DNA of 59,220 nucleotides from contig CACXBF010000011.1 of the NCBI GenBank assembly GCA_902765855.1, positions 1 to 59,220 on the forward strand, in the 5' to 3' direction. Positions within the stretch are counted from its first letter, which is position 1, and each line of letters begins with the position of its first letter. Source of the stretch: an uncultured Ruminococcus sp. GTDB lineage: Bacteria; Bacillota; Clostridia; Oscillospirales; Acutalibacteraceae. The position numbers were made by a program, and so were the translations under genes. Positions 20,789 through 54,315 of the stretch are shown here, one piece after another. A model generated the notes under the pieces. That model ran no database searches. It had not been told where the DNA came from and worked only from the letters and a program-made list of their open reading frames with translations.

Positions 20789-21922
20789 ATGGCTGTTTAT
20801 CGTGACAAGTCCAACGGTTATGACGGCAAGACATGGAGAGTGGCGGTTTATTATAACGACTGGCAGGGTAACAGGAAAAAGCATGAAAAGAGAGGATTCA
20901 AAACAAAACGAGCCGCACAGGAATACGAGACGGAGTTTCTTGCAAAAAAGAAGCATGATGTAAATATGGGCTTCTGTGCTTTTGTCGATCTCTACATGGA
21001 TGATATAAAGCCGCATATCAAGCTGACTACATACGCTACAAAAGAGAATATCATCGAAAAGCATATCAAGCCTTATTTTGCAAACAAAAGCTTGTCGGGA
21101 ATTTCGTCTGTTGATGTTTTACAGTGGCAGAACTCTTTGCTTACGCTTCGTGACGATGACGGCAAAGGGTACTCACCGACTTATCTCCGTTCTGTGCAGA
21201 ATCAGCTTAATGCAATTTTCAATCATGCGGTCAGATATTATAATCTTCCGAAAAGCCCGTGTGCAGCAACAAAGAAAATGGGCAAGAGCAAAGCAAAGGA
21301 AATGCAATTCTGGACAAAAGACGAGTATATGGCTTTTGCTGAAGTGATGAAAGAAAAGCCTGTGTCATACTATGCTTTTCAGCTTTTGTATTGGGGTGGT
21401 ATGCGTTGTGGTGAACTGCTTGCTCTCTCAATGTCTGACTTTGATCTGGAAAAGAAAACTCTGCACATACACAAAAACTATCAGGTGGTCAAAGGTCAGG
21501 AAATGATCATAACTCCAAAATCGGAAAAGGGAGACAGGGTGATTGATCTTCCGGATTTTATCTGTGAGGAAATGGAAGATTACTTTGCATCGCTTTATAA
21601 GGCTGATCCGGAAAGCAGGATCTTTCCATTTACGAAATATTATCTTCATCACGAAATGGACAGAGGAGCAAAAGCCGCAGGAGTGAAAAGAATACGAATT
21701 CACGATTTGCGTCATTCAAGCTGTGCTCTGCTGATCAATCTCGGCTATTCTCCGATTCAGATCGCGGAGCGTCTGGGACACGAAAGCGTGACGATAACAG
21801 AAAGGTATGCACATCTTTACCCGTCTGTTCAGAAACAAATGGCAGTCAGTCTTGATGATGCGTTCAGAAGGAAAGAGGAAAATACTGATGAAACAGAAAA
21901 TGCAGAAAAGCAGGATATATAA
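20789..21922 (+). CDS. int: Tyrosine site-specific integrase
   Basis: This 377-aa protein has an N-terminal arm-binding region with DWQGNRKKHEKRGFKTKRAA, a SAM-like core-binding domain, and a catalytic domain. The catalytic domain has Arg near residue 205 (GGMRCGELL), His305-x-x-Arg308 (HDLRHSS), LGHESVTITERYAHLYP, and the nucleophile Tyr340. It resembles Tn916/ICE-type integrases. It should insert the element at the guaA 3' end. The gene overlaps the next by 35 bases. It shares the layout DWQG-x-RKK...GF with the integrase at 54346-55410, so the two are related. Confidence 0.93.
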   Translation: MAVYRDKSNGYDGKTWRVAVYYNDWQGNRKKHEKRGFKTKRAAQEYETEFLAKKKHDVNMGFCAFVDLYMDDIKPHIKLTTYATKENIIEKHIKPYFANKSLSGISSVDVLQWQNSLLTLRDDDGKGYSPTYLRSVQNQLNAIFNHAVRYYNLPKSPCAATKKMGKSKAKEMQFWTKDEYMAFAEVMKEKPVSYYAFQLLYWGGMRCGELLALSMSDFDLEKKTLHIHKNYQVVKGQEMIITPKSEKGDRVIDLPDFICEEMEDYFASLYKADPESRIFPFTKYYLHHEMDRGAKAAGVKRIRIHDLRHSSCALLINLGYSPIQIAERLGHESVTITERYAHLYPSVQKQMAVSLDDAFRRKEENTDETENAEKQDI

Positions 21923-22268
21923 AATTCAGACAGAAGAGCCGAAGCCCAAAAAGAAGAAAAACGAAAAGAACCGTAAGCGAAATGTTTTTATGAATTTCAG
22001 AGTTTCGGAAACTGAAAGAGAGCTTATTGAAAAAAGAATAGCTCTTTCCGGAATGACAAAGGCAGAGTTTTTTATTCAGAGTTGCTTGTATCAGGCAATT
22101 CTGGTCAGAGGTAATATCCGCACTTTTGATAAAATCAGAGAAAGGCTTTCCGCCATTGAAAGCAAAATTTCTGAAATGGAGAAAAGTCCGGAGCTGACAA
22201 AAGAAGATCTTCTGGAGCTTCGGACAATTACGGAAATGCTGGCATTTATCTATAAAAGGGAAATATAG
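21888..22268 (+). CDS. Ribbon-helix-helix mobilization accessory protein
   Basis: This 126-aa protein has a lysine-rich N-terminus (EEPKPKKKKNEKNRKRNV) and a ribbon-helix-helix-like core (FMNFRVSETERELIEKRIALSGMTKAEFFIQS), then a coiled-coil tail (FDKIRERLSAIESKISEME). It resembles relaxosome accessory and plasmid mobilization proteins. The ATG at 21888 overlaps the end of int, with GAGGAAA upstream. It probably binds near oriT together with MobC. Confidence 0.65.
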   Translation: MKQKMQKSRIYKIQTEEPKPKKKKNEKNRKRNVFMNFRVSETERELIEKRIALSGMTKAEFFIQSCLYQAILVRGNIRTFDKIRERLSAIESKISEMEKSPELTKEDLLELRTITEMLAFIYKREI

Positions 22269-22490
22269 GATTTTTGCTTTCTGAATTTTGGTGAGCAATG
22301 CGATTTCTGGATTTTGCGGATAAGCAAAATAAGAAGGGGTGCGGGGATTTCACCGCCAAGCGATTTCGATATACGAAGTATAGCATAAATCTATGCTTGC
22401 TAATCCGTAAAACCTACAAGTCGCATATTCGTAAAAAATCGGCTTTTTCAGGAAGTTTGAAGATAGTAACAATAAGAAAAATCGAAAGGA
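22269..22490. other. Candidate oriT region
   Basis: This roughly 220-base non-coding stretch lies directly upstream of mobC and the relaxase, where MOBP elements carry oriT. It contains inverted repeats such as AGCATAAATCTATGCT (about 22381-22396) and several CGATTTCG-like motifs. The nick site cannot be assigned by eye. Confidence 0.45.
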
Positions 22491-22502
22491 GTGAAAAGTT
22501 TT

Positions 22503-22904
22503 ATGGACAGAGAAAAGAAAACAGTAGAGATCTGCGTAAGAGTAACACCGGCAGAAAAGAAAGAATTGCAGGAAAAAGCGGATGCCGCACACCTGAGCCT
22601 TTCAAGGTATATGGTTAAATCTGCGTCAGACCGTAAAATGCTCCAGACCGAAAACATAGCAAAGCTGATCTATGAGATACGGAAGATCGGGATAAACGTA
22701 AATCAGATCGCTCACGTTGCTAACGGGCAGAGATTTATTCTTCAAAGCGATCTTGTTTCTCTTAATCGTCATATGGATGCGGTTATTGAAATTACCAAGA
22801 AGATACTCAAAGCAACTTACGACGAAAAGGAAGCAAGCATAAAAACGCTTGAACGGAAAATCGACAAGCTAATGGAGAGGGTGAATGTTTATGGCGACGG
22901 TTAA
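22503..22904 (+). CDS. mobC: MobC-like relaxosome protein
   Basis: This 133-aa protein has a ribbon-helix-helix N-terminus (VEICVRVTPAEKKELQEKAD, LSLSRYMVKSA) and the MobC-type core IYEIRKIGINVNQIAHVAN, followed by a coiled coil. MobC proteins open oriT for the relaxase. The ATG follows AAAGGAGTG. It overlaps the relaxase start, so the two are translationally coupled. Confidence 0.85.
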   Translation: MDREKKTVEICVRVTPAEKKELQEKADAAHLSLSRYMVKSASDRKMLQTENIAKLIYEIRKIGINVNQIAHVANGQRFILQSDLVSLNRHMDAVIEITKKILKATYDEKEASIKTLERKIDKLMERVNVYGDG

Positions 22905-24726
22905 ATCAGTAAAGTCCGCAATTAAATCTTCGGACTATGTAGCAAAGTCGATCTCATATATTCTCTCGCCGGAAACAAAAAGCGGAAATGAAAAATGTGT
23001 GCAGTCAAGCTTTCTGAATTGCTGTAATGATAGTATCGACAGTCTTGTTACACAGTTCGATGTTACAAGATTTGCCTTTGGCAAGAATGATAAGATATTG
23101 GCACACCACTATGTCCAGAGTTTTTCGCCGAATGAAAAAATAACTCCGGAGCTTGCTCACAAGATCGGCGAAGAATTGGCAGACTGTGTTGCACCGGGAT
23201 TTCAGGTTATTGTTGCAACTCATGTTGACCGTGATCATATACATAATCATTTCCTGATAAACTCTGTCAGCTTAGAAACCGGAAGTAAATGGTTCGGCAA
23301 TCAGGCTACTCTTAAAAATATGCGTACAGAGAGTGACAGGCTTTGCAGGCAATATGGACTATCAGTAATTGATGAAACAACAGGACTGCGTGGCATAGAT
23401 CAGTCAACGCAGAAATTAGCGGAGCAGGGAAAATCGTGGAAAGTCGAATTATGCCATGCACTTGATGAAGCGAAAATTCTTTGTCACAGCAAAGAAGCGT
23501 TTATAGGCTTTATGAAGAATAAAGGATTTGAAGTAACTCGTTACACCGACAGACACATTACCTTTCAGAAAAATAGCGAGAATAAAAAGATTCGTGCTGA
23601 TACTTTAGCTAAACAATTTGGCGACTACTACACAAAAGAGAATCTGGAAAGAATGATGGGTTTCTATTCTCTGCCGAAACCGCTGCCATCGAGAGAAGCA
23701 CCACCGCAGAAACCGTTTATTAGCGAATTTGAAAAATACGAAAAAGTATATATCAAGAAACATCCTCCGCTTGCGAAGCCTGATGAAGTTGCAGGTCTGC
23801 AACAGAAGATAAGACAATCGAAAAATCCGTTATTTTTTCTTCTGAGGGTACTTTTTATGCTGATGCTTCGCCGTCATAAGAAACTGTTGCTTGATAAAAG
23901 ATATTTCAAGATGAGTATGCACACACATCAGAAAAAGTTCAAAAAGAAAAAGCTGTCTGTAAGCGAACAGCTTGAAAAATACAAAAGCAATCCGATCTAC
24001 GAGGGCAACATTCCTTATTACAGGCTGATACATTCTCAGGGCGAAAACTGCGTAATAAGATTTGACCTTTCAGCGATTCCGAAACTTTATGCTTGTCCGA
24101 TTTTCTTTTCTGCGAAGCTTTACAATGACCATGCGATGGTAACGATCAAAGAAAGGGACAAAAAACAATTGCTCGAAGTATTGAAATTAAAGGATGAAGC
24201 TATTATTGAAAGGCATACTAAAAGGTACTTGCCCGATGTAAAATACGATGAAATGAAAAAGAGAGCAATGTTTCTTGGCGTGGAAGTTGAGTTTCTGGTG
24301 ATAGCTGAAAAAGATATTGATAAGCTCACAAAGGAAAAAGACCGCTATGTTTCATTTCCACCGGAGAACGGAAAAATAAAGCTTGCATTTTTGCCGCAGA
24401 ATAAAGATTATGTTCTGCACTGTCTTTATCCTGACAAGCATCAGTCGGAGAGCGACGATCTGTTTTCTGTAACAAGAAATTCAAAGGTCAACACAAGGCT
24501 GAAATCAGAAGCTCTGCTCAACGGTAAGCAGATGCGTTACAGGACGCTGACGAGGATTGAAGTTGAGAAGCTTCATAAACAAACAGGCGGTCAGGAGATG
24601 TTTGCGGTATTCAGCAAGGGCGAAAACGGGCAGGAAGAACAGTACAATGTTGCGTACAAAGAAGATGATGAAAAGAAGATCGAGAACATAATAGGCACAC
24701 AAAGCAGGCCGAGATTCAGAAGATAG
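22891..24726 (+). CDS. mobA: Relaxase/mobilization nuclease (MOBP-type)
   Basis: This protein of about 611 aa has an N-terminal relaxase domain. SYILSPETK near the start contains the probable nicking Tyr, and HVDRDHIHNHFLINS (about residue 111 on) is the HxD...HxH metal-binding motif. NQATLKNMRTESDRLCRQYG is typical of MobA/VirD2-family relaxases. The long C-terminal half is basic with no clear domain. It should nick and pilot the element DNA during transfer by a helper system. No type IV secretion genes are in the window, so the element is mobilizable rather than self-conjugative. An ATG two codons upstream is also possible. Confidence 0.9.
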   Translation: MATVKSVKSAIKSSDYVAKSISYILSPETKSGNEKCVQSSFLNCCNDSIDSLVTQFDVTRFAFGKNDKILAHHYVQSFSPNEKITPELAHKIGEELADCVAPGFQVIVATHVDRDHIHNHFLINSVSLETGSKWFGNQATLKNMRTESDRLCRQYGLSVIDETTGLRGIDQSTQKLAEQGKSWKVELCHALDEAKILCHSKEAFIGFMKNKGFEVTRYTDRHITFQKNSENKKIRADTLAKQFGDYYTKENLERMMGFYSLPKPLPSREAPPQKPFISEFEKYEKVYIKKHPPLAKPDEVAGLQQKIRQSKNPLFFLLRVLFMLMLRRHKKLLLDKRYFKMSMHTHQKKFKKKKLSVSEQLEKYKSNPIYEGNIPYYRLIHSQGENCVIRFDLSAIPKLYACPIFFSAKLYNDHAMVTIKERDKKQLLEVLKLKDEAIIERHTKRYLPDVKYDEMKKRAMFLGVEVEFLVIAEKDIDKLTKEKDRYVSFPPENGKIKLAFLPQNKDYVLHCLYPDKHQSESDDLFSVTRNSKVNTRLKSEALLNGKQMRYRTLTRIEVEKLHKQTGGQEMFAVFSKGENGQEEQYNVAYKEDDEKKIENIIGTQSRPRFRR

Positions 24727-25455: not shown

Positions 25456-25504
25456 AGCAGGAGTATCAGCTTTGAAACGAAGGTCGATGCTCCTGCTATT
25501 TTAT
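25456..25504. terminator. Bidirectional hairpin between convergent genes
   Basis: AGCAGGAGTA and TGCTCCTGCT form a stem followed by ATTTTATTT on the plus strand. It overlaps the end of the tandem-HTH gene on the minus strand. Confidence 0.6.
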
Positions 25505-26017
25505 TTCCTGTTCAAGATTATTAAACTCGTCAGTGTCGAAAAACTCTGCAAGCGTAATACCGAGTCCGTCACATATTTGTTTAATGGTGTTCAGTTTCGG
25601 ATTCATGCTTTTCCCATAAAGGATATTGTTTATCGTTACAGTCGGCACACCTGTAAGCTCCTCAAGTTTATAAATGGGAACATGATTGGATTCACATAGC
25701 TGTAAGATACGGTATTTGACGGCTGTAAGTGTGTTTATTGAGCCACTATCGGCATTACTTGTTTCAGGTTTCTGGTTGTCCGTATTTTTGGGAAAGCTAT
25801 CGAAAGAAGGTGTATCAAAGAACTTTGTAAGAGTAATCTCTAAACCGTCACACAACATTTTGATTGTAATAATTCTTGGATTTTTGCTGAGTCCGTAAAC
25901 AATATTCTTTACAGTAGAAGGTGGAACTGCTGACAAGTTTGCAAGCCTGTTTACTGTAATATTTCGTTTTTTACATAGTTCTAATAGCCTGTCACTTACT
26001 GCCTTTATCATATCCAT
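25496..26017 (-). CDS. Regulator with two tandem XRE helix-turn-helix domains
   Basis: This 173-aa protein is an internal duplication. Residues about 5-65 (RLLELCKKRNITVNRLANLS ... TIKMLCDGLEITLTKFFDT) and 95-160 (RILQLCESNHVPIYKLEELT ... TIKQICDGLGITLAEFFDT) are clearly homologous XRE-type HTH domains joined by a polar linker. One chain could thus bind both halves of a palindrome. A perfect 19-base palindrome lies just upstream, suggesting autoregulation. Confidence 0.8.
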   Translation of the reverse strand: MDMIKAVSDRLLELCKKRNITVNRLANLSAVPPSTVKNIVYGLSKNPRIITIKMLCDGLEITLTKFFDTPSFDSFPKNTDNQKPETSNADSGSINTLTAVKYRILQLCESNHVPIYKLEELTGVPTVTINNILYGKSMNPKLNTIKQICDGLGITLAEFFDTDEFNNLEQEIK

Positions 26018-26570: not shown

Positions 26571-26714
26571 CTTTGGTTGATATTTATGAGAATTAATTTA
26601 GTGTTTGTGTAATTTGTCGGAATCGACAGTGAAATGATTATATATGTTGAATAATTTGATATAATGTGATAGAATATGTATATCAATTATATATCGTAGA
26701 ATAAGGAGGATAAT

Positions 26715-28205
26715 ATGGAAAAATTAAGAGAAAACAAACCTACTGCTGATGTACTTATGACATCTATGAGGTCAATGGGTTATTCCTTTGAGAGCGCCAT
26801 TGCCGATATTATAGATAATAGTATCAGTGCCCATGCAAATCAGATTTCTGTCCGTTTCCCTATTGATCCTTCTGAATGCTATGTGGCGATATGTGATAAC
26901 GGTGAAGGTATGTCATCCGAGGAACTGTTTGACGCGATGAAATATGGAAGCGAAAACAAACGCGATGGCAGATCGTCAGATGATCTTGGTCGTTTTGGTC
27001 TTGGGCTGAAGTCGGCGTCTCTTTCTCAGTGCAGAAGGTTGTCTGTAATCAGTAAGAAAAGCGGAGTTGTTTCTGCTTATATATGGGATCTTGACGTAAT
27101 TGAGCAAAAGCGTGACTGGTATGTGATTGAATGTTCCTCCGAGAAAATAAAGGATATCAGATTTGCGGAATATCTTGATGATCTTGAAAGTGGCACTGTC
27201 GTTCTATGGGAAAACTTTGATTTTATGGAGAAATCATCGGGAAATGTCTATGCAGAGCTGAATAATAAGATGTCAACCACATCGGAATACCTTTCACTGA
27301 TTTTTCATCGTTTCCTGAACAGAAAGGATAAGACTGCAATAGTAATAACAATCAACAACCATACTCTTGAGGGGTTTGATCCGTTTCTTGAATACCATAA
27401 CAAGACGAATATCCGGAGAGAAATGAAGATTTCGATTCCGGATTCATCAGGCAGTGAGCATCTTATAACTGTCCAACCATATATACTTCCTTTTCAGAAG
27501 GATTTATCGGCTGAGGATAAGAAGAAATCTGGTGGCATAGAAAACTATCGGTCAAAGCAAGGGTTTTATATATACAGAAACGAAAGACTTATTGTCTGGG
27601 GAACATGGTTCAATCGTCATCGTGATGAACTGACAAAGTATGCCCGTATCAGGGTGGATATTCCTAATTCTCTCGATGATATATGGGGTATAGATATCAA
27701 AAAACAGAGTGCAACTATACCTCTTATGATCAGAAAGCGTCTGACCAAGGCAGTGGATGATGCAATGGATATTTCTGTCCGTAACCAGTCATACAGAGGA
27801 CGGACCTCAAAAGTTGACGAGGAAAAGGAATATATCTGGGATCGCATCAGTCAGAGAGGTGGACTATACACTTACAGGATAAATCGTCAATCCGATATAT
27901 ATGAAATGGTCAGGAGCAAATTAAGCGAGGAAGCACAGTCGTATCTTGATATGCTGATCGAGGAAATAGAGAACAATGTCCCATTTCAGCAGATATATAT
28001 TGACAAGTCACAGAATGTTATTGATGAAGAAGTGACAGATGAAAGAAAAGCAGATGTAGAATGTAAGGCAGAAGTAATGATAAAATTTGCAGTCAGTGCA
28101 GGTGCTACTGATATAATCGGATTGATTGACAGATTGTTTATGTCAGAACCGTTCAGTAATTTTCTGGAACTCAAAGAAGTGTTAAGGGAGCGATATCATG
28201 GTTAA
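26715..28205 (+). CDS. MORC/MutL-like GHKL ATPase of a defence operon
   Basis: This 496-aa protein shows the Bergerat ATP-binding fold. The N box is AIADIIDNSISAHA (about residues 29-42), the G1 box is CDNGEGMSSEEL (about 60-71), and the G2 box is FGLGLKSASLSQ (about 93-104), followed by an SGTVVLW strand. This layout matches the prokaryotic MORC-like ATPases described in restriction-modification neighbourhoods by Iyer, Abhiman and Aravind. ATP-driven dimer closure around DNA is the known behaviour of the superfamily. It overlaps the Z1 gene by 8 bases. It is the first gene of a six-gene unit; AAGGAGG precedes the ATG. Confidence 0.88.
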   Translation: MEKLRENKPTADVLMTSMRSMGYSFESAIADIIDNSISAHANQISVRFPIDPSECYVAICDNGEGMSSEELFDAMKYGSENKRDGRSSDDLGRFGLGLKSASLSQCRRLSVISKKSGVVSAYIWDLDVIEQKRDWYVIECSSEKIKDIRFAEYLDDLESGTVVLWENFDFMEKSSGNVYAELNNKMSTTSEYLSLIFHRFLNRKDKTAIVITINNHTLEGFDPFLEYHNKTNIRREMKISIPDSSGSEHLITVQPYILPFQKDLSAEDKKKSGGIENYRSKQGFYIYRNERLIVWGTWFNRHRDELTKYARIRVDIPNSLDDIWGIDIKKQSATIPLMIRKRLTKAVDDAMDISVRNQSYRGRTSKVDEEKEYIWDRISQRGGLYTYRINRQSDIYEMVRSKLSEEAQSYLDMLIEEIENNVPFQQIYIDKSQNVIDEEVTDERKADVECKAEVMIKFAVSAGATDIIGLIDRLFMSEPFSNFLELKEVLRERYHG

Positions 28206-31005
28206 TCAGGAAAGAGTCAATAATATTGTCGGAATGGTACGTAATCTGATCGAATTGACAGGTGTTGCAAACACGCTGACAGATGAAAAAATTGAAGACC
28301 TGATTTCTCAGGCTATTATGATTGCAAATATTGATTGTCCTGTTGAAGAACGAGAAGCCTGCAAGCGTGATCTCAAATACAGATATCTTATTCAATCAAA
28401 GCCTGGAAGCAAAATTCTTAATGATTATGATCAGGAAACCTGGTACACGGATATAAAAGATGGTCTGGAAAAGAAATACTGGATAAGATATAAGGATTAT
28501 CTGATTGATGAAAAGCATTTCAGTCCGAGTGTTGTCAGTAAGCTTGGGAATGAAACTCTGGATCAGGATCTTATGAACTGTCTTCTTAATCCCGAAATTG
28601 CAATTGATGCACCTGTTATACGCAGAGGATTGGTTATTGGTGATGTTCAGTCCGGTAAAACATCTACATATATTGGTCTGATCTGTAAGGCGGCAGATGC
28701 CGGATATAAAGTCTTTATACTTCTTACAGGTACTATTGAATCCCTGAGAAAACAGACTCAGGAAAGAGTTGAAGAAGGATTCATCGGTATTGATATGTCA
28801 GATCAGACAACAGGAGGAAAACGAGTAGGTGTCGGGCTTGACAATAAGCCTATTACTGCTATGGCGCTGACTTCCAGACATAATGATTTTACTGGTAATT
28901 CAAATAAAATTGCTGTAGCTCTGAGCGACAAGAATGCTGTAGTTTTCGTTATCAAAAAACAAAAGGATGTATTGACAAAACTGACAAAATGGCTGGTAGA
29001 TCTAAATGCCGATAACCTGACAAAAAAGATAGATCTGCCAATGCTTATGATAGATGATGAAGCGGATAATGCATCCATTAATACAAGCAAGAGCAAAGAG
29101 GATCCTACAACCATCAATAAGCTGATACGAAATCTTGCAAATGTTTTTACAAGAGCCACTTATGTCGGTTTTACAGCAACTCCGTTTGCTAATGTGTTTA
29201 TTGATCCGGAAACCACGGAAGAGATGGAAAATCAGGATCTGTTTCCGGAAGATTTTATTGTATCACTTCCTACGCCGAGCAATTATATAGGTGCTGAAAA
29301 GATTTTTGCGGAAGACGGAGAGTTCCATTCCCAACTGGTTTATATTACTGATGCTGGTATTGATGAAAAAGACGGAAAATCATTCTATTTCAAACATAAA
29401 AAGGATTGGGAGGGAGAACTTCCCGGAAGTCTTACAGATGCAATTTACGCATTTTATCTTGTTAATGCAATAAGAGATCTCCGAGGTGACAGAAAAAAGC
29501 ATCGCTCAATGCTTATAAATATGTCACGTTTTGTAAAAGTCCAGAAATTCATTCGTTCTGAAGTGGATGCTATTCATTCTGCTGCATACAGGGAAATAAA
29601 ATTCAATCTTAGTCATAATTATACCGAATCAATGAAAAGCCCTGTCCTTAAACGCATAAATTCCGTCTGGAATGAGTATTTTTCAGATACTGAATTTGAT
29701 TGGGATGATATTGTTGGTTGCCTTTGTCAGGCAGTAGAGCCGATTATGATTAAAGTGGTAAACAGTGCGAGAGGAACAGATAAACTTGTTTATCCCGAAG
29801 ATGAGGGTGTAAGAGTAATTGCAATAGGCGGACTTGCTCTGTCGAGAGGTCTCACGCTTGAAGGACTGGTAATCAGTTATTTCTATCGTAATACCTGTAC
29901 ATACGATGTTCTGATGCAGATGGGCAGATGGTTCGGATACAGGCATGGATATGAAGATCTGTTCCGTATCTGGACACATAAGGATTCTGCTGAATGGTAT
30001 GCTGAAATTTCACGGGCAACAGAAGAACTGAAGTCGGATATGAGATATATGAATGAGTGTCAGATGAAGCCGAAAGATTTTGGTATCAGAGTTATGGACG
30101 ATTCAAAAGATCTTCAGATAACAGCATATAATAAGATGCGTAATTCTGAAGAAGAGATTCTTACACACAGTTATTTCGGGAATATTTTTGAAACACCGTA
30201 CCTTGTTTATAATCCGGATAAACAAAAGAAAAATTTTAGCACAGTAAAACTGTTTGTGGAAAAGCTTGTTTCAGATGGATGGAATTTTGAATACAGGGAA
30301 TCAAATGGCAGTAAGGGAAGATTAATGCTTACGGATATTCCTAAAATCATAATAACTGACCTTCTTGATAAGCTTTATATTTCAGATTTCAATGCTTATT
30401 TCAAACCTGCACAGCTGAAAGATTTTATGGATCACTGTGACGAGAAATGTCTTGACTATTTTGATATTGCTTTTATTGAAGGAACTAAAAGCGAGAAAAC
30501 AGCTGAAATTGCTGGAAAAAGAATAAACACAATTCTGAGAAGTAATTGTAGAATTACCGAGGATGAAGACAGGTTAAATATCGGAAGAAGAGGTAAACTC
30601 GGAGGACCGGGAGATGGAATGGTCGGAATTGTTGACACTGCCGACAGAACTTCTTCAGAGATAATCGAATCAGCAAAAAGCAGGTTCAGAGATTATTATT
30701 TGCTGAAGAAAAAGAAACCGTTTTCTGACACATCAACATATCCTGGAGAAACATGGTTTAAGTATGTTCCTGACAGAAAACCATTGCTTATTATCTATCT
30801 GGTCGATATCAGACTGGAGGAAAACCAGGAAGCAAGGTCGGCAGAATTTGAAAGATTGATGGAGGGTATTCCCTCAGTCGGATTTGCAATAGGATTTCCC
30901 GAGAATGAGAATGCACCTGAAAACCAGTATACCGTTTATCGCGCTAACAGGGTATACAATTGGTTTGAGCGTGATGAGAATCCGAACGAAAGCGAGGAAG
31001 AATAA
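28198..31005 (+). CDS. Z1-domain superfamily II helicase-like protein
   Basis: This 935-aa protein contains a Walker A motif GDVQSGKTS (about residues 147-155), a DEAD-type Walker B IDDEADNAS (about 283-291), GFTATPFANVF (about 322 on), and the C-terminal QMGRWFGYRHGYEDLFRIW (about 571 on) that marks Z1 proteins. Z1 proteins are helicase-like ATPases that accompany MORC-like ATPases and nucleases in predicted defence operons. It probably translocates on DNA. Its stop overlaps the next start (TAATG), pointing to coupled translation. Family assignment is firm; mechanism is inferred. Confidence 0.9.
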   Translation: MVNQERVNNIVGMVRNLIELTGVANTLTDEKIEDLISQAIMIANIDCPVEEREACKRDLKYRYLIQSKPGSKILNDYDQETWYTDIKDGLEKKYWIRYKDYLIDEKHFSPSVVSKLGNETLDQDLMNCLLNPEIAIDAPVIRRGLVIGDVQSGKTSTYIGLICKAADAGYKVFILLTGTIESLRKQTQERVEEGFIGIDMSDQTTGGKRVGVGLDNKPITAMALTSRHNDFTGNSNKIAVALSDKNAVVFVIKKQKDVLTKLTKWLVDLNADNLTKKIDLPMLMIDDEADNASINTSKSKEDPTTINKLIRNLANVFTRATYVGFTATPFANVFIDPETTEEMENQDLFPEDFIVSLPTPSNYIGAEKIFAEDGEFHSQLVYITDAGIDEKDGKSFYFKHKKDWEGELPGSLTDAIYAFYLVNAIRDLRGDRKKHRSMLINMSRFVKVQKFIRSEVDAIHSAAYREIKFNLSHNYTESMKSPVLKRINSVWNEYFSDTEFDWDDIVGCLCQAVEPIMIKVVNSARGTDKLVYPEDEGVRVIAIGGLALSRGLTLEGLVISYFYRNTCTYDVLMQMGRWFGYRHGYEDLFRIWTHKDSAEWYAEISRATEELKSDMRYMNECQMKPKDFGIRVMDDSKDLQITAYNKMRNSEEEILTHSYFGNIFETPYLVYNPDKQKKNFSTVKLFVEKLVSDGWNFEYRESNGSKGRLMLTDIPKIIITDLLDKLYISDFNAYFKPAQLKDFMDHCDEKCLDYFDIAFIEGTKSEKTAEIAGKRINTILRSNCRITEDEDRLNIGRRGKLGGPGDGMVGIVDTADRTSSEIIESAKSRFRDYYLLKKKKPFSDTSTYPGETWFKYVPDRKPLLIIYLVDIRLEENQEARSAEFERLMEGIPSVGFAIGFPENENAPENQYTVYRANRVYNWFERDENPNESEEE

Positions 31006-31916
31006 TGGAACTGAAGGAAAGGTTTGAGCAATTTACTTCTCCTGGCTATTATTCGAGAGTGGATAGTGATCATATTCTTGAACTATACATAGGACTTGAT
31101 GAAACCGGAAACAAATCGATTGAATTGCGTTCTTTGTTCAGACCAAGAACTGTGAAAGGCACATCTGCCATTGATGTCAGTCAATATGAGAATGAGAAGT
31201 ATAAAACTATCCGTTTTTCTCTGACAGATGAGGAAATAAGCGGTTTGTTCTATACTTTCTGCGATGACCTGATAGAACAGACAAGAAGTCTGAAGGATGA
31301 ATCCGAAGGATATAATGCCATTGTTCTGCGTTTTCACCAATGGAAAAAGCTGTTTGTTTCTTCAAAGAAAGACTTTCTGAATGAATCACAGATCATGGGA
31401 CTTATCGGAGAGCTGCTGTTTCTTAAAGACCACCTCAGCAAGAGATTGGGTCTTGCAGAAGCACTGAGAAGCTGGAGCGGTCAGGAACTAACACATAAGG
31501 ACTTTTCATATAATGACACATGGACAGAAGTGAAAACCATAAAGAGAAGCTCACAGACGGTTAAGATTTCTTCTCTTGAACAGCTTGACAGCAAGGATGA
31601 AGGTGAACTTGCTGTATATGCCCTTGAGAAAATGAGTCCGGAATACCGGGGAATCACCCTGAACAAGCTTATTGTTGTTATCCGTAATATGTTTGATGAT
31701 AGTGATGACCGTGATTCGTTTATGGCTAAAGTGGCACTTCAGGGATATGAGTACCACAATTACTATGATGATTTTGTATTTGAGAAAATTTATTTCAAAA
31801 GTTTCCGTGTTGCAGATGGATTTCCCCGGCTGATACCGGGGAAAATGCCTGACGGAATAATAAAGGCGTCATATGATATTGATCTGAATAAGTTGAATGA
31901 TTTTGAAAACAGATAA
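31005..31916 (+). CDS. PD-(D/E)XK motif protein (DUF4420-like)
   Basis: This 303-aa protein fits the PD-(D/E)XK family found beside Z1 proteins. A conserved acidic helix GLIGELLFLKDHL (about residue 131 on) is followed by HKDFSYNDTWTEVKTI (about 163-178), where the Asp and the E-x-K (EVK) would form the nuclease centre. A Gln/Glu-containing helix (KISSLEQL) follows. It is the likely DNA-cutting component of the operon. No separate promoter is visible; it starts on the Z1 stop codon. Confidence 0.85.
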   Translation: MELKERFEQFTSPGYYSRVDSDHILELYIGLDETGNKSIELRSLFRPRTVKGTSAIDVSQYENEKYKTIRFSLTDEEISGLFYTFCDDLIEQTRSLKDESEGYNAIVLRFHQWKKLFVSSKKDFLNESQIMGLIGELLFLKDHLSKRLGLAEALRSWSGQELTHKDFSYNDTWTEVKTIKRSSQTVKISSLEQLDSKDEGELAVYALEKMSPEYRGITLNKLIVVIRNMFDDSDDRDSFMAKVALQGYEYHNYYDDFVFEKIYFKSFRVADGFPRLIPGKMPDGIIKASYDIDLNKLNDFENR

Positions 31917-31936
31917 TTAAAAGGATGTGATTGACT

Positions 31937-34210
31937 ATGGATTATCAGGAATATAAAGAGGATTTTCTGAACACACTCCGGGCTGATTCAGCTCATAGTG
32001 GTACGGATACTGAAGAAGAATTCCTGAATTATACTCTCGGATTGCTTGAAGACTTTGACGAAATTGATTCTCCTGAAATGACTGGTATGGGAGATAAAAA
32101 AGGCAAGGGCGGCAGGTTGATGAGGGCAGACGGTTACTGCTTTGATGAATCCGAGCATAGTCTTATCCTTTTTATCAGTGATTTTCAGGATATGAAAGAG
32201 CCTGAAAAGCTGACCAGAAGCCGTGTGGATGAATTATACTGGAGACTTTACTATTTTATTGATGAGGTTTGTAATGGTAATATCAGCAATTACTTTGATG
32301 ATTCTGATGATGTACTTAAAATCTCTGATCTGATCAGAAAAAGAATGAATGCGGAAATGAATGATCCGCAGATGATCCTGAAAATCAAATTCTATGTTCT
32401 GACAAACAAGGAACTGGACACCAGGTTGCTCAGTACTAATCTTCTTGAAACTACGATCCGTAATACAAAAGGAAAGAAGAAAAAGGCTAAAACAACCAAA
32501 AAAATCAAGAAAGAAGATTTTAACGGAAAACCGCTTGAAATTGCTTTGTGGTATCCGGAAAGATTCTATGAAATGGAAAGCAGCAATAACAATGAGCCTA
32601 TTGTTATTGACATGAAAGAGAACTATGGGGTTCCCGGTATTCCATGCATCAAAGGCGATATAGGAGAACATCTTGATTATGAGGCATATATTGCCATTAT
32701 TCCCGGAAAACTTCTTGCGGATATATATATTGATCACGGAAGTCGTGTGCTTGAAGGAAATGTCAGGGCATTCCTCGGAACAAGTGGCTCGAAAAGCGTA
32801 AACAGTGGCATCAGACGGACAATCAATAATGATCCGACTAAATTCTTTACATACAATAACGGAATTGCAACTACTGCATCAGATGTGGAAACGGAACTGG
32901 TTGACGGACATCTGTATATTACAAGAATAGTCGATCTTCAGATAATCAACGGGGGTCAGACAACAGCTTCTCTGGCGGAGGCTGTTCTGAAAAAGACAAA
33001 TACCGGTCTCGAAGGTATTTTTGTTCCGATGAAGCTGACTGTAATAGATGACAGGGAAACTGAGGATGAAAGTGGTATCCGTATATATGATGCTATGGTT
33101 AAGGATATAGCAAAATATGCGAACAGTCAGAATAAAGTTACTGCTGCAGATCTGTTTTCCAATGATCCGTTTCATATCGTTATGGAAAAGCTTTCAAAGA
33201 AATATCTTGCACCTCCTGTACGCTCTGCTGTTCCTACAGGCTGGTATTATGAGCGATCAAGGAAGAAGTATCAGCAGGAGCAGATCAAGCTGTCAAAAGA
33301 CGGACAGAAACGTTTTACTTCAAAATTTCCCAAAAATCAGATTGTTACCAAGGAACAGCTTGCTATGTATATCACTACTGCTTTTTCTCTCAGACCTGAT
33401 ATTGTTTCCAGAGGTAAAAACTGGACTATGAAAGCCTTTGGCGCTGAAATCAGTGAAACATATAAGAAGAATAAGGAAGCTTTCAACGAATTCTATTTCA
33501 AGAAATGTATTGCAGCTACGATTATTTACAGAACAGTGGACGATTATCTTGAATCAAATAAGGATTCTGCAAGACGACCGACAGGATTCTGGTACAAAGC
33601 CGGTGGATATAAACTGAATATTGTTCCGTATACTGTGGCTAAAATAATAGCATCAATTCCTGATGGATTTACCCTTGATTGGATGGATATCTGGAACAAA
33701 CAATCGGTTTCTCCTGCTCTGATGAGGGAAATTGAAAAGCTGACAAAGATTACAAATGATTATATCTGTGATAGCCACGGCATGATTGTTACGGAATATT
33801 GTAAAAAGCCCTCGACATGGGAAACATTTCGTGATAAAATAGAATATAGTGTGTCCCGTGAATTGTTACGTGAGCTTGTCAGCGTTTCAGAGGTCAACGA
33901 ACAGGAAAAAGAGTCCAGAAAAGACAAGAAAGAAGATTACAATTTACAGACTATCATTGATCTGATTGGTCTCGGAGAAGAATACTGGCAGAATATCGTA
34001 AGAATAGCACAAGCAAATAATATAAGCTTGTCTTATCAGGAGCTTACAGCTATCAGCAGTTTTATAACAATTATCCGATCCGGAAATATGCCGATAAACA
34101 AATCCGGAAAAGTACCGAAAAATGTGATGAAAACTGTTGATACGGTCATTTCAATAAAGGATAAATTGGAAACAGAAGGGTTATTGAAAAACAATGGATC
34201 AGACTTATAA
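31937..34210 (+). CDS. AIPR-family protein
   Basis: This 757-aa protein carries the hallmark AIPR motifs FFTYNNGIATTA (about residue 307 on) and LQIINGGQTTASLAEA (about 335 on). AIPR stands for abortive infection phage resistance, a family found in phage-resistance loci and often in restriction-modification clusters. A lysine-rich patch (KGKKKKAKTTKKIKKED) occurs near residue 178. The mechanism is unknown; a nucleic-acid role is suspected. The ATG at 31937 follows AAAGGATG. It is the only gene of the operon separated by a real gap (20 bases); it overlaps the methyltransferase gene by 17 bases. Confidence 0.85.
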   Translation: MDYQEYKEDFLNTLRADSAHSGTDTEEEFLNYTLGLLEDFDEIDSPEMTGMGDKKGKGGRLMRADGYCFDESEHSLILFISDFQDMKEPEKLTRSRVDELYWRLYYFIDEVCNGNISNYFDDSDDVLKISDLIRKRMNAEMNDPQMILKIKFYVLTNKELDTRLLSTNLLETTIRNTKGKKKKAKTTKKIKKEDFNGKPLEIALWYPERFYEMESSNNNEPIVIDMKENYGVPGIPCIKGDIGEHLDYEAYIAIIPGKLLADIYIDHGSRVLEGNVRAFLGTSGSKSVNSGIRRTINNDPTKFFTYNNGIATTASDVETELVDGHLYITRIVDLQIINGGQTTASLAEAVLKKTNTGLEGIFVPMKLTVIDDRETEDESGIRIYDAMVKDIAKYANSQNKVTAADLFSNDPFHIVMEKLSKKYLAPPVRSAVPTGWYYERSRKKYQQEQIKLSKDGQKRFTSKFPKNQIVTKEQLAMYITTAFSLRPDIVSRGKNWTMKAFGAEISETYKKNKEAFNEFYFKKCIAATIIYRTVDDYLESNKDSARRPTGFWYKAGGYKLNIVPYTVAKIIASIPDGFTLDWMDIWNKQSVSPALMREIEKLTKITNDYICDSHGMIVTEYCKKPSTWETFRDKIEYSVSRELLRELVSVSEVNEQEKESRKDKKEDYNLQTIIDLIGLGEEYWQNIVRIAQANNISLSYQELTAISSFITIIRSGNMPINKSGKVPKNVMKTVDTVISIKDKLETEGLLKNNGSDL

Positions 34211-35483
34211 TCTGGTTGAATTTTTCAGTGGTATCGGAAGTCAGGCACGAGCACTTGAAAATCTCAACGTGAAAATAAATACGCTCGGTACCTGCGAATG
34301 GGATATTCATGCTTTTGTAGCGTATGATGCAATACATAATTCACCGAAACCGGATCCTGAAATAGCTGTGATGGAGAAACCGGAGATACTGGAGATACTG
34401 AGCAGATATAATCTCAGCAACGATGGAAAGAATCCGATGGATTACAGCTCTCTGAAAACCTATTCCGTAGAGGTTCTGAGGCTGATCCTGTCAGGAATCA
34501 GAAGAAGCAATAATTTTGTGGATATCAGTTCGTTGAACGGGAAGTCAATGCCTGAAGGAATAGATATTCTTACATATTCTTTTCCTTGTCAGGATCTTTC
34601 AAATGTCGGAGCCTTTCATGGCTATAATAAGGGCATAGATAAAGGCTCAAACAGCAGGTCAAGCCTTTTGTGGCAGGTGGGCAGGATACTTCAGGAAATG
34701 AAAGATGCAGACAAACAGCTTCCTCGTTTTTTGCTTATGGAGAATGTTCCTGCTCTGCTCTCAAAAAGGCATCGCCCGAATTTTGAAATCTGGATCAGTG
34801 ATCTTGAAAAGCTGGGGTATGAAAGTGCATATTATGAATTGAATGCGTCTGACTTTGGCTTACCGCAGAATCGTCCACGACTACTCATGCTGAGTGTTTT
34901 TTGCGGAACTGATGAAGCTTTTCACCAGAAAATTAGAGAGTATTTCTGTACGATTGACAGTAATTATATTATTGACTCCTATAAAAAGTCAAAGTACTAT
35001 AAACCAAAATCAATAAAAGACTTGCTGAGAATGGATTATAGTAATAAAAAATTGTTTGCAGAAGCGGTTGAATGTACACCGAATGATACTGAATCAAGAA
35101 GAAAAATATGGGAAGAAAATCCCCAACTGGTTCTTGAAGGAAACCGGATAAATCCTGATTACAAGGTGATCAGGACGATTACTACGAAACAGGACAGAAA
35201 TCCTAATTCAGGTAACATTTATTTCGATAGTGGTATAGAAGGAAGAGGAAAATTCCGTTATCTGACACCAAGAGAATGCCTGTTGTTCATGGGGTTCAGG
35301 GATAAGGATTTCAAGCATATCAAGAAGGCAAACGCACAGTACCACAAAGGAGATTACCTTTTTTCAAGAGATAAGATAATCCGTATGGCAGGAAATAGTA
35401 TTCCGGTAAAATTACTTGAAGGAATATTCTGGCTGCTGATTGAAACAGACAGGTATATGAAAGAAAACAATGGATGTACATGA
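34194..35483 (+). CDS. dcm: DNA (cytosine-5) methyltransferase
   Basis: This 429-aa protein shows the C5-methylase motifs in order. Motif I is EFFSGIGSQARALENL (residues about 9-24). Motif IV is SFPCQDLSNVGAF (catalytic Cys near 131). Motif VI is LMENVPALL (about 181). Motif VIII is QNRPRLLML. Motifs IX-X are RYLTPRECLLFMGF and MAGNSIPVKLLEGIF. It should methylate cytosine within a recognition site set by the region before motif IX; the site cannot be read. It gives the self-protection arm of the operon. It overlaps AIPR upstream and Vsr downstream. Confidence 0.94.
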   Translation: MDQTYNLVEFFSGIGSQARALENLNVKINTLGTCEWDIHAFVAYDAIHNSPKPDPEIAVMEKPEILEILSRYNLSNDGKNPMDYSSLKTYSVEVLRLILSGIRRSNNFVDISSLNGKSMPEGIDILTYSFPCQDLSNVGAFHGYNKGIDKGSNSRSSLLWQVGRILQEMKDADKQLPRFLLMENVPALLSKRHRPNFEIWISDLEKLGYESAYYELNASDFGLPQNRPRLLMLSVFCGTDEAFHQKIREYFCTIDSNYIIDSYKKSKYYKPKSIKDLLRMDYSNKKLFAEAVECTPNDTESRRKIWEENPQLVLEGNRINPDYKVIRTITTKQDRNPNSGNIYFDSGIEGRGKFRYLTPRECLLFMGFRDKDFKHIKKANAQYHKGDYLFSRDKIIRMAGNSIPVKLLEGIFWLLIETDRYMKENNGCT

Positions 35484-35889
35484 TAAGAAAACAAGAAGTT
35501 ATAATATGTCCTGTATCAAGGGAAAGAATACAAAACCGGAAGAAAAAGTACGGAAATATCTGTTTTCACAGGGGTTCAGGTATCGTAAAAACGATAAGCG
35601 ATTACCTGGAACTCCTGATATTGTATTACCGAAATACAGGACTGTTATATTTGTCAATGGATGTTTCTGGCACGGACATCAGGGCTGTCGCTACTTCGTT
35701 GTACCGAAGACAAATACAGACTTCTGGATGAACAAGATTGATACAAATCGTATCAGGGATCAGAAGAAAATCTCAGAGCTTGAGGCAATGGGCTGGAAAG
35801 TGATCGTGATATGGGAATGTGAATTGAAGACAGGAAAAAGAGAGGATACATTGTCAAGTTTGGTTAATCAACTTTATTTACAGTATTGA
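35470..35889 (+). CDS. vsr: Vsr-type very short patch repair endonuclease
   Basis: This 139-aa protein matches Vsr: SYNMSCIKGKNTKPE at the N-terminus, LPGTPDIVLPKYRTVIFVNG (metal-binding Asp), CFWHGHQGCRYFVVPKTNTD (zinc and catalytic His) and WKVIVIWECELK near the end. Vsr enzymes nick beside T:G mismatches left by deamination of 5-methylcytosine, which suits the preceding C5-methylase. It overlaps that gene by 14 bases. In this operon type a Vsr-like protein might also act as an effector nuclease; that is inference. Confidence 0.93.
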   Translation: MDVHDKKTRSYNMSCIKGKNTKPEEKVRKYLFSQGFRYRKNDKRLPGTPDIVLPKYRTVIFVNGCFWHGHQGCRYFVVPKTNTDFWMNKIDTNRIRDQKKISELEAMGWKVIVIWECELKTGKREDTLSSLVNQLYLQY

Positions 35890-36117: not shown

Positions 36118-37362
36118 ATGAGGCATTATTCAATAAATAAGATCTTTGAAATGAAGCATATATCAGATTTTTTGTATTCTGATGGTCAGTTCAGACCAGA
36201 ACGTATGATTACGGATTTAGGACTATATGAAGCAATAGTAATAGATGTCGCAAATATAAGTGTGACATATATAACTGGTGCTGATGTTCCTTTGAAAGGT
36301 AAAGCATCTAAAACTATTAAATCGGTGATGGTATCCGATGATGTAAAAACTTTACACAGGTTTTTGGAGTTGAAAAATAGTATTCCTCTACCTTGTCCTG
36401 AATGTAGAAAAGAATATGCTTATATCCCCAAAAAGTTTATCAGTTATGCAGATTTGATAAGTGCGATGAATCCCAATAAAAACGATATTGTTTATTTGAT
36501 GGAAGAAGGAGTAAAAATCAAAAGACCTAAAGTAGATTACGGTCCATTATATGCTTCATATATATTCCAGTTAGATACTATGGAGTATTTACAGGGTGAT
36601 CCTGATACAATGAATTATGATTATTGTAAGAAATCTTGTGTTGAAGGAATAATATCAAATGCCAGAAGAATACATCGGGATTTTAGTTGTTCATTAAATC
36701 CGGATCATGAAATTTTTATTGAATGTATTATTCATCGTGCAATTGATGTATGTAAAATACAGCCTGAAGTAAAAAGTATTCTTGAACAGCAGAAAATAAA
36801 TCCATCTGTAGATATTCCGGAAAAGTTCCGGGAACAAATTGATAAATATGAACAGATAAAAGATTTGCTGATTCTTGAAAAAGTTGGTCAAGAACCATCA
36901 ATGGCAGATCTTCAGATGTTTGATATAGATAAATACAAGAATATTTTACCCAGAGAGAGTTTCAGAGATTTTAGTATGGCACTTGGTTTATATGCTTCTG
37001 GAGTAGGTTGTGGTTCATTATTATATCTCAGGAGGATACTTGAAAGAATAGTTCGGGATTATCAGGAAGAGTGTAAGAATTACCCGAATTGGAATGACTT
37101 GGATTATAAAAATCTCAGATTTGAAGAGAAAATGAAATACTTGGAACAATTTGGAAAAAAGATCATTCCGGATGATCTTTCAGATATAAGGACTATAATT
37201 TATGGAAAACTAAGTCAAGGAGTACATGAATTGTCTGAACAGGATTCCTTAGAACTATTTCCGTATTTAAAGATTGTAATAGAAATGATTCTTGATAAAA
37301 AAATTGCTGAAAGAGAACGTAACGAAAAACTTAAGTCAATAAAGAAGGTTTTAATGAAATGA
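36118..37362 (+). CDS. Uncharacterised 414-aa protein in the defence island
   Basis: I do not recognise a named family. A single CPECRKEY pair occurs near residue 97, and a CKKSC plus HRDFSCSLNPDHEIFIECIIH stretch lies near 170-200, hinting at metal binding. The last third is helical (GSLLYLRRILERIVRDYQEE, then YGKLSQGVHELSEQDSLELF), reminiscent of DUF4145/HEPN-like helical domains in defence genes. An AGGAGG site precedes the ATG. It stands between the Vsr gene and the Septu-like pair, separated by the MITE-like unit, and appears monocistronic. Position favours a defence role, without proof. Confidence 0.6.
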   Translation: MRHYSINKIFEMKHISDFLYSDGQFRPERMITDLGLYEAIVIDVANISVTYITGADVPLKGKASKTIKSVMVSDDVKTLHRFLELKNSIPLPCPECRKEYAYIPKKFISYADLISAMNPNKNDIVYLMEEGVKIKRPKVDYGPLYASYIFQLDTMEYLQGDPDTMNYDYCKKSCVEGIISNARRIHRDFSCSLNPDHEIFIECIIHRAIDVCKIQPEVKSILEQQKINPSVDIPEKFREQIDKYEQIKDLLILEKVGQEPSMADLQMFDIDKYKNILPRESFRDFSMALGLYASGVGCGSLLYLRRILERIVRDYQEECKNYPNWNDLDYKNLRFEEKMKYLEQFGKKIIPDDLSDIRTIIYGKLSQGVHELSEQDSLELFPYLKIVIEMILDKKIAERERNEKLKSIKKVLMK

Positions 37363-37447
37363 GTAGTAAAAGTTACATTAAAAAACTCAGAATTACTTGA
37401 TATAGTTTGAATACTATAAAGATTTACATATGTTTTCGGAGATATTT

Positions 37448-37888
37448 ATGCTGACAATATATAAAAACAAGAATGATATTCCATCAGATAAGGAGTATGT
37501 TGAGCTGAATGATTTATTTTTCAATATGAACACTTCATCCTTGTTGGATGACAGGGCGAAGGATATCATAAGGAATATTGATGCTTCGGAACTGATCAGC
37601 AGATACAAAATACTATCACGCTTTAACGGTGATGTTCTGAATACCGATAAACTGTCAACGAGCTGTAAAACAGTTCTGAATGTAATGTATTGTCCGGATA
37701 AGGTTTTCTGTCTGAAAGGGTGTGGTGAAGAGGCAGTGGAAATACTATTTGCTCTTGAAAAAGGTGCAGTTTACAGCGACTATGCTATGATACCGTTTGA
37801 CTTTGACAAGGTTGAAGTATGTTCGGACGGAAAAATTGAAGTAATAGACGATTATGAAGAACTAAAAGCTTGGTGGCAAGAATCGTAA
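37448..37888 (+). CDS. DUF4869-like protein
   Basis: This 146-aa protein (ATG at 37448 behind CGGAGA) reads MLTIYKNKNDIPSD, then DRAKDIIRNIDASELI, and later LSTSCKTVLNVMYCPDKVF with CGEEAVEILFALE. The order resembles the small DUF4869 family of gut Firmicutes, whose function is unknown. That match is from memory and moderate. Its end runs into a short overlapping open frame (37870-38106) that I do not support as a gene. Confidence 0.6.
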   Translation: MLTIYKNKNDIPSDKEYVELNDLFFNMNTSSLLDDRAKDIIRNIDASELISRYKILSRFNGDVLNTDKLSTSCKTVLNVMYCPDKVFCLKGCGEEAVEILFALEKGAVYSDYAMIPFDFDKVEVCSDGKIEVIDDYEELKAWWQES

Positions 37889-38138: not shown

Positions 38139-39431
38139 ATGATGATTGAAAAAATGAGCATAAAGAATTTCAGAAAATTCGATGAACTGAATATAGAGCT
38201 TGCTCCGCAGATGAATGTTATTGCAGGTAATAATGCCGCAGGTAAATCAACGATCCTGGAAGCATTGGCTGTTGGTGTGGGAAGTTTCTTTCTTGGTATT
38301 GAGGCTGTTCCGTCTCCGGGTATCAAGAAAACTGATGTAAGATTTATTTCAAGAAACACCGGCAGCGTAACGGACAGACAGCCACAATTTCCGGTAACAA
38401 TTCAGTGTGAGGGAGAAGTAAATGGAAAGCCTATTTCCTGGCTTCGCAGTTTGAATACAGATTCAAAATATACAACCTATGGTGATGCAGGACAGATAAA
38501 AAACATTGCTTCTGATATACAAAAAGAAATCAGGAACGGCAATGAGGATGTCATTCTTCCGTTAATATCTTACTATGGAACAGGCAGACTCTGGGCACAG
38601 AAAAAAGATAAACAGGCAGATATTGCATCAGAAATCAGCAACCGTTTTGGCGGATATGTGGATTGTTTGTCTGCATTGTCAAATGAAAAGCTGATGATAA
38701 AGTGGTTTAAGAAAATGACATTGATTCAGGTTCAGGAGGAAACCGAAATACCTGAGCTGACCGCAGTAAGAACAGCGATTGCAGAGTGCTATAAAAGCGG
38801 AGATCTGATTTCTTCAGATGTTGATGTCAGGTATAGCCTGAAAAGCGATGAATTGGAAATTGTCTATATAGATAAAGACGGCAGTAAGCAAAAACAGCCC
38901 TTCCATGAACTGAGTGACGGTTACAAGAATACATTAAGTCTTGTGGGAGATATAGCCTATCGTATGGCTGTGCTTAATCCTCAGCTTCTTGGCGAGGTAA
39001 CGAAGAAGACATCGGGAATTGTGCTTATTGATGAAGTGGATCAGCATCTTCATCCGCTATGGCAGAAAAACATTCTCAGGTGTTTGATGCGGATTTTCCC
39101 GAAAGTGCAGTTTGTTGTTACAACACATTCACCGAGTATCATTTCATCGGCGATTAATAGCAATCTGATTCTGCTTGATAATGATGGCTGTCATTATTAC
39201 GGCAGTGATGCCTATGGCAAGGATGTCAATTCTGTGCTTTATGAGATAATGGGTGCAGGTTACAGACCTGACGAAATTGAAAGCAAACTGAGAGAATTCA
39301 ATGATTGTCTTGATAGGCGTGATTTTGAAAAGGCAAAGAATATTCTTGATGAATTGACGGATTTGCTTGGCGAAAAGAATACGGATGTTGTTAATGCAAA
39401 AATAGCCTATGATTTTGAAACCTTTGTGTAA
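38139..39431 (+). CDS. ptuA: Septu-like ATPase (PtuA type)
   Basis: This 430-aa AAA_21/ABC-type ATPase has FRKFDELNIELAPQMNVIAG, Walker A GNNAAGKSTILEAL (about residues 30-43), a signature-like ELSDGYKNTLSLVGDIAYRM (about 259), Walker B VLIDEVDQHLHP (about 295) and the H-loop VVTTHSPSI (about 327). With the HNH gene behind it, it matches the Septu defence pair, in which an SMC-like ATPase controls a nuclease. An OLD-like or RecF-like ATPase is the nearest alternative. AGAGG precedes the ATG by 8 bases. Confidence 0.8.
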   Translation: MMIEKMSIKNFRKFDELNIELAPQMNVIAGNNAAGKSTILEALAVGVGSFFLGIEAVPSPGIKKTDVRFISRNTGSVTDRQPQFPVTIQCEGEVNGKPISWLRSLNTDSKYTTYGDAGQIKNIASDIQKEIRNGNEDVILPLISYYGTGRLWAQKKDKQADIASEISNRFGGYVDCLSALSNEKLMIKWFKKMTLIQVQEETEIPELTAVRTAIAECYKSGDLISSDVDVRYSLKSDELEIVYIDKDGSKQKQPFHELSDGYKNTLSLVGDIAYRMAVLNPQLLGEVTKKTSGIVLIDEVDQHLHPLWQKNILRCLMRIFPKVQFVVTTHSPSIISSAINSNLILLDNDGCHYYGSDAYGKDVNSVLYEIMGAGYRPDEIESKLREFNDCLDRRDFEKAKNILDELTDLLGEKNTDVVNAKIAYDFETFV

Positions 39432-39492
39432 AATTTTATTTGGCATCATTGTCAAAAACTTTGTTAAAAGAAAGAAGCCTCACATTAAGGCT

Positions 39493-39507
39493 CCGGCGGC
39501 TCGCCGG
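39493..39507. repeat. G+C-rich palindrome between the Septu-like genes
   Basis: CCGGCG-gct-CGCCGG lies in the 98-base gap between ATPase and HNH genes. It has the same 3-base-centre design as the palindromes before purA, and may be another copy of that repeat class. Confidence 0.5.
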
Positions 39508-39529
39508 TTGAAACATTCAGTGGTGACTT

Positions 39530-40168
39530 ATGATAAGAATAGTAAAAAAGCAAAGAGTACCGACTATTTTCGGGCAGATAAAAAGCAGACGTGAAAATTA
39601 TGACGATCTTGTTTCAGAAGAAAAAGATGCAATGAAACAAGTTTTGTTGGAGGAACAAGGATATAAGTGTGCTTACTGTATGTCAAACATCAGCATGAGC
39701 AATTCTACGATTGAACACTATATCCCACGAAAAGGAACAAACGGGGATATGTCCTTGTCTCTTGACTATCGTAATCTGTTTGCTGTATGTGATACAACGA
39801 GAGGTTGTCCGGAAGAAGAACAGACCTGTGATGTAAAGAAAGGGGATAAGCTGCTGCATATTGATCCTCGTTTACAGGAACATATTGATACGATTTACTA
39901 TGACAGGTCAGGATATATCAGATCTTCTTTCTCTTCCGGTACTGATAATTTTGATGATGATCTGAATCAGATACTGAATCTTAACTCCCATCAGCTTCTG
40001 AATAACAGAGTAAGTGCATGGAAAACCCTTATGCAGAGAATGAATAAGAAAAAGGATAAGACATGGACAGCTGACTTTATACACAAGTATATAGAGAAGC
40101 TTTCAAGTGCTGATGACAGGACAGCTTACTCAGGATTTCTGGTTTATCTATTGAAGCAAAGAGTTTGA
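39530..40168 (+). CDS. ptuB: HNH endonuclease of the Septu-like pair (PtuB type)
   Basis: This 212-aa protein has the HNH zinc-finger nuclease core: YKCAYCMSNIS (about residues 45-55), STIEHYIPRKG (about 58-68), then DYRNLFAVCDTTRGCPEEE and TCDVKKGDKLLHIDP. The pattern is that of the PtuB / TIGR02646 nucleases found next to AAA_21 ATPases and also in some retrons. No reverse transcriptase or retron RNA is nearby, which favours Septu. No strong ribosome site is seen; 98 bases separate it from ptuA. Confidence 0.82.
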   Translation: MIRIVKKQRVPTIFGQIKSRRENYDDLVSEEKDAMKQVLLEEQGYKCAYCMSNISMSNSTIEHYIPRKGTNGDMSLSLDYRNLFAVCDTTRGCPEEEQTCDVKKGDKLLHIDPRLQEHIDTIYYDRSGYIRSSFSSGTDNFDDDLNQILNLNSHQLLNNRVSAWKTLMQRMNKKKDKTWTADFIHKYIEKLSSADDRTAYSGFLVYLLKQRV

Positions 40169-40594: not shown

Positions 40595-41398
40595 TCAAAC
40601 CCGATACGCGGCGACTACAAAGCGTCCGTTTTCCGCATGGTAACTACAGGTCGAAAGCATAATGATCTGTGTTTTTTTTGCCGGGCAATCGCTTGTAAAC
40701 ATTACGGAAACGTCTTTTATATCATTAACGAGCGCCTTATACTCCTCATAGCTGAGTTTACCTGCTCTTTCATTGTATTTGAACTCGTTCTCGCTGCCGA
40801 TGGTGGTTCGGAAGGCGGCAAAAACACGATAAATACGGTTTTCGTTCACGGTGTCAAAATTGATATACTGGTGTTGCTCAGCCCAACCTTTATCTGCATA
40901 ACAGTCAAGAGTACCGAACATGGTGCCGATGTTCATATTATGAGCATAGATGACAAACGCGTCTGAATTTTCGTCCGCACCGGCACCGATGAACGGTGTC
41001 CCGGAAAAGGAATAGTTCTTATCAATATCACGGTGAAGATAATATTCCGGATCGTCGTTCGAGGATTTTACAACAGGATAATCTATGACCGTATCTTTGA
41101 TTTTCAGCCAGCCCCTGAAATCCGGGTTTATTCTCGTTATTTCGGAAAACGCCGAGATTTTTTTCTCCTCAACGAAGCTTGATCTGCTTTCTGCTTTAGA
41201 CGGCTGCGGTGAGTCGCTTGCTTCATCACTGTCTTCAGCGTACTGCGAGACGATTTGCCGCAGCTCGTCAAAGCGATGTTGTTCCTGCTTTTGAGGAATG
41301 TAGATGATAAGCCCTTGATAAAGAGAATACAACAGCACAGCAACGCATATCACGGCAAGTAAAATCATTATGATGTTCTTTGCTTTGATTTTGTTCAT
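40595..41398 (-). CDS. Class B sortase, distal gene of the pilus locus
   Basis: This 267-aa membrane-anchored sortase has an N-terminal hydrophobic segment (IIMILLAVICVAVLLYSLYQ), the His-containing VIYAHNMNIGTMFG, the Cys-containing IIMLSTCSY (Cys near residue 251) and a C-terminal FVVAAYRV whose Arg completes the triad. WLKIKDTVIDYPVV is a class B feature. Class B sortases polymerise pilins in FCT-type pili or anchor proteins to the wall. It follows the adhesin gene by 19 bases. With two sortases in the locus, one may polymerise and one may anchor; which is which is not visible. Confidence 0.9.
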   Translation of the reverse strand: MNKIKAKNIIMILLAVICVAVLLYSLYQGLIIYIPQKQEQHRFDELRQIVSQYAEDSDEASDSPQPSKAESRSSFVEEKKISAFSEITRINPDFRGWLKIKDTVIDYPVVKSSNDDPEYYLHRDIDKNYSFSGTPFIGAGADENSDAFVIYAHNMNIGTMFGTLDCYADKGWAEQHQYINFDTVNENRIYRVFAAFRTTIGSENEFKYNERAGKLSYEEYKALVNDIKDVSVMFTSDCPAKKTQIIMLSTCSYHAENGRFVVAAYRV

Positions 41399-41417
41399 CA
41401 GTAAAGCCTCTTTGAGA

Positions 41418-45410: not shown

Positions 45411-45475
45411 TGCGGCAGATATTGTGTTTTGTGTATACGTAAGCGTAACCTCCTTTCTTTTGATTTGTTACGGAG

Positions 45476-46096: not shown

Positions 46097-46098
46097 TT

Positions 46099-48099: not shown

Positions 48100-48177
48100 G
48101 TTGTGTTCCTCCTTTGATGATTCATGAAAATTTTTGATAAATGTATCTGCTCCCGTTTCCGAGTTTGCATTTGAAGT

Positions 48178-54309: not shown

Positions 54310-54315
54310 GGGTAA

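Follow-up and report, generated by a model that had tools for sequence, protein, structure and literature searches.

What would an operon that joins a MORC-type ATPase to a motor ATPase, a nuclease, a DNA methylase and a mismatch endonuclease do for its host? The question is raised by the window analysed here, the 59,220 nucleotides of contig CACXBF010000011.1 (assembly GCA_902765855.1) from an uncultured Ruminococcus sp., in which a sequence-only reading had described a six-gene, restriction-like operon at 26715–35889 on the forward strand. The gene content leads us to favour, with some reserve, an ATP-dependent restriction system gated by C5 methylation. The DNA-clamp ATPase, motor ATPase and nuclease would restrict DNA using ATP, and C5 methylation would serve as the gate.

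A C5 methylase beside the four-gene core

A C5-cytosine methylase lies near 65 of 66 four-gene cores (the MORC ATPase, motor ATPase, nuclease and AIPR genes) and in none of 20 control stretches, a near-constant association that is a new observation. In 50 of 65 loci the methylase gene shares the strand of the core and lies no more than 1 kb away. One core type carries methylases of at least three recognition classes, and locus L015 has kept its core but exchanged its methylase for one of another class; these are also new observations.

Some cores are preceded by a sigma factor. In L156 (a Neorhizobium petrolearium plasmid), a sigma-70 family factor stands directly 5′ of the core, as described for mzaABCDE. 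A search with it gave matches before the MORC gene in L154, which with L156 belongs to the second set, and in 8 of the 80 first-set loci (L071, L072, L073, L075, L077, L078, L080 and L081), making ten sigma-factor loci; L028 gave a weak, distant match. The methylase is a near-constant companion of these cores too, although the bond is looser than in the window because the C5 gene is always on the opposite strand.

Several results weigh against a methylation gate. The diagnostic columns of the L015 core are 84–93% clade-like and 0–5% like class-A-locus cores, whereas a classical restriction enzyme would have been expected to change along with its methylase. In L013, a second class-A methylase sits on a more distant core (54–75% clade-like, 0–23% class-A-like). 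In L150 (a Hymenobacter plasmid), DUF3883 accompanies the four-gene core, and the 19.8 kb read there gave no C5 match. Covariation of the subunits with the C5 protein over all 65 rows singles out no reader subunit. In all ten sigma-factor loci the C5 gene opposes the core, and in L156 the C5–Vsr pair lies on the other strand, next to a separate type II endonuclease gene, so in that locus the methylase may be independent of the core.

The C5 methylase could be a mere auxiliary of the core, which is possible but rather unlikely. The L015 exchange without a matching change in the core, the variety of recognition classes on one core type and the L150 core speak for it, as does the description of mzaABCDE in the excerpts of PMC9523054 used here, a sigma factor plus mzaBCDE with no methylase named among them. 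However, a gene found near nearly every core and in all ten sigma-factor loci is very constant for an auxiliary. The nuclease also changed more than its partners on the L015 branch (14.5% of tree length against 8.3–10.0%; bootstrap 12.0–16.7), though the L068 and L012 branches show a nearly equal relative nuclease excess with no class switch. That the core reads its mark independently of sequence seems doubtful.

In an improbable alternative, the core would make a modification-dependent (type IV-like) attack on foreign or hypermodified cytosines, and the C5 gene would come from a separate neighbouring restriction-modification (R-M) unit, as the type II endonuclease gene in L156 might suggest. 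Against this, a nuclease directed at 5-methylcytosine would attack its own host, the C5 gene keeps its close same-strand position in most loci, and in the window it overlaps the AIPR gene by 17 bases and is itself overlapped by the Vsr gene by 14.

The six proteins and their motifs

The sequence-only reading was right that the operon is complete and tightly coupled: all six frames are open and the overlaps are preserved. The catalytic residues examined are all intact. A silent or decaying copy is therefore very improbable, the sequence giving no sign of decay in the six genes. An AGGAGG precedes the first gene, together with a promoter-like TTGAAT-17-TAGAAT at 26647–26675, although such matches are no commoner than in shuffles (29 overall against a shuffle mean of 31.4), and promoter and terminator patterns showed no excess over shuffled sequence. 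The component list also held, through family or structure matches and motifs.

The MORC-type GHKL ATPase (26715–28205, 496 aa) is a MzaB homologue (PADLOC 1e-85) and matches the PDB structures of MORC2, MORC3 and MORC4. Its GHKL motifs are in place (D34/N35, DNGEGM, GLGLKS, T161), and residues 283–293, GFYIYRNERLI, fit the signature GhXhhpXXRhl of PMC2292703; G283, R288, R291 and L292 are invariant across 75 rows. ADIIDN aligns opposite the AELIDN/AELLDN of solved MORC3 (two sequences) and MORC4, placing Asp31 at the N-box position where these carry Glu; Asp in 83 of 83 family rows for the eukaryotic MORC Glu is a new observation. In GHKL enzymes the N-box glutamate acts as general base when ATP is hydrolysed, and the aspartate may indicate a slow, long-lived ATP clamp. 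MORC2 uses ATP to clamp and compact DNA (PMC12216690, excerpt), and DNA entrapment is stated for C. elegans MORC-1 (PMC8277788, excerpt).

The second gene (28198–31005) encodes a superfamily II (SFII) ATPase, a MzaC homologue (PADLOC 2.7e-119) with the motifs GDVQSGKT, DDEAD and DVLMQMGRWFG, in which V replaces T at one position of DThhQXuRhFG. The DUF4420 PD-(D/E)XK nuclease (31005–31916, 303 aa; Pfam 2e-56) is a MzaD homologue (PADLOC 5e-14) whose E136, D166 and E175-x-K177 are kept in all 82 ungapped rows of 83.

The AIPR protein (31937–34210, 757 aa from ATG, with TTG at 31931 as a possible alternative start) matches Pfam AIPR (1e-81) and AIPR_N (3e-23), and also PADLOC MzaE (3e-59) and AbiU (8e-24). 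Its NNG, Q-x-x-NGGQT and ANSQN motifs are invariant or nearly so across 71 rows. The resemblance of NGGQT to DGQ(Q/H)R brought up a ParB/GmrSD-like NTPase, which the sequence does not support: a first profile comparison, with 5 of 11 template proteins extracted, aligned the motifs at a probability of 0.2%, and against 39 GmrSD_N proteins that alignment was gone. A comparison with DndB (P 0.039) was no better than the negative control of AIPR against MORC (0.027).

The C5-cytosine methylase (34194–35483, 429 aa; Pfam 1e-46) carries FSGIG, PCQ, ENV, QNRPR and GNSI, and its recognition-region signature, TITTKQDRNPNSG, is that of class B. The closest solved structures are PDB 4dkj and 8c56 (2–3e-53), which we take to be the same enzyme, M.MpeI. 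Although 4DKJ_A is the CG-specific M.MpeI (PMC10899764, excerpt), CpG specificity was dropped as a candidate because the alignment, weak in this stretch, places Gly, Ile and Pro opposite F302, E305 and A323, residues from two recognition loops of M.MpeI. The Vsr-type mismatch endonuclease (35470–35889, 139 aa) scores above the cut-off of TIGR00632 (5e-46) and matches solved Vsr 1cw0 at 1.6e-37; Vsr was not detected in 16 of 50 loci.

Likeness to known systems

The operon, intact and apparently mobile, is a good example of an already known, predicted but little-explored restriction type. With the predicted MORC system of PMC2292703 it shares the signature-bearing MORC ATPase, the SFII ATPase with its DThhQXuRhFG region, the E-D-ExK nuclease, the frequent C5 methylase and Vsr, and AIPR in the contextual graph. 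Homologues of MzaB, MzaC, MzaD and MzaE stand in one block in alphabetical order, as in mzaABCDE (Gao 2020), considered here through excerpts of PMC9523054 and the PADLOC/NCBIfam models. However, their bit scores fall far under the NCBIfam equivalog cut-offs (313/850, 481/1500, 95/420 and 255/1050), and the window operon has its own C5 methylase and Vsr and no detected sigma-factor homologue: the L156 sigma factor, searched against all window frames of at least 60 aa, matched nothing up to E 0.01, E. coli MzaA itself not being used as query.

In the excerpts of PMC9523054, Vsr is not mentioned for the putative defence system type II (II-A/II-B); DNA repair endonucleases are associated there with type I. 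The CglI/NgoAVII/BceSIV R-M systems are described as three-gene systems that lack MORC, the DUF4420 nuclease and AIPR and use a PLD-B3 R-protein as nuclease (PMC4267653, excerpt); no PLD or B3 family was found among the six operon proteins.

Genomic setting

The annotated neighbours are YpsA/SLOG, double helix-turn-helix (HTH), relaxase and NikA/MobC proteins. The double Cro/C1-type HTH gene (25496–26017, reverse strand; Pfam HTH_26 1.3e-17) is divergent and upstream of the operon with one gene between, a possible regulator; type II of PMC9523054 (excerpt) has an associated putative transcriptional regulator. Soon after guaA, 20789–24726 encodes a tyrosine integrase, two NikA/MobC-type mobilisation proteins and a MobA/VirD2-type relaxase, a gene set that suggests an integrative mobilisable element. 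Direct repeats were sought near the guaA end to place the right end of the element, and none was convincing; the best (16 of 17 bases, 18544 and 25187) was judged at chance level given many AT-rich comparisons and, if real, would place the operon outside the element. The G001 contig stops 931 bases past guaA, and the G002 match stops at guaA. No Rfam family reached its gathering threshold in 18000–41000.

Downstream lie a 414-aa protein that matched no family significantly (36118–37362), a DUF4869 protein (37430–37888) and a Septu-type PtuA/PtuB pair (38139–40168; PADLOC PtuA1 4e-142, PtuB1 5e-52). A pilus-type locus follows on the reverse strand (40595–48753) with large SpaA/DUF7601 and FctA-like surface proteins, two sortases and a signal peptidase. 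PDDEXK_9 and AAA-ATPase_like/PDDEXK_9 proteins, a second tyrosine integrase and a pRha phage regulator at 50397–57216 are perhaps another mobile element.

Least probable is a mobile mismatch-repair or DNA-maintenance cassette outside defence, which the Vsr and MutL-superfamily ATPase might suggest, and PMC2292703 raises the idea that versions found outside R-M contexts were recruited to mismatch repair, but Vsr is dispensable, the neighbours are defence and mobile-element genes, and the core is homologous to MzaB–E.

The restriction-like interpretation stands in part. For this family of operons, the DNA-marking enzyme is exchangeable on the core.
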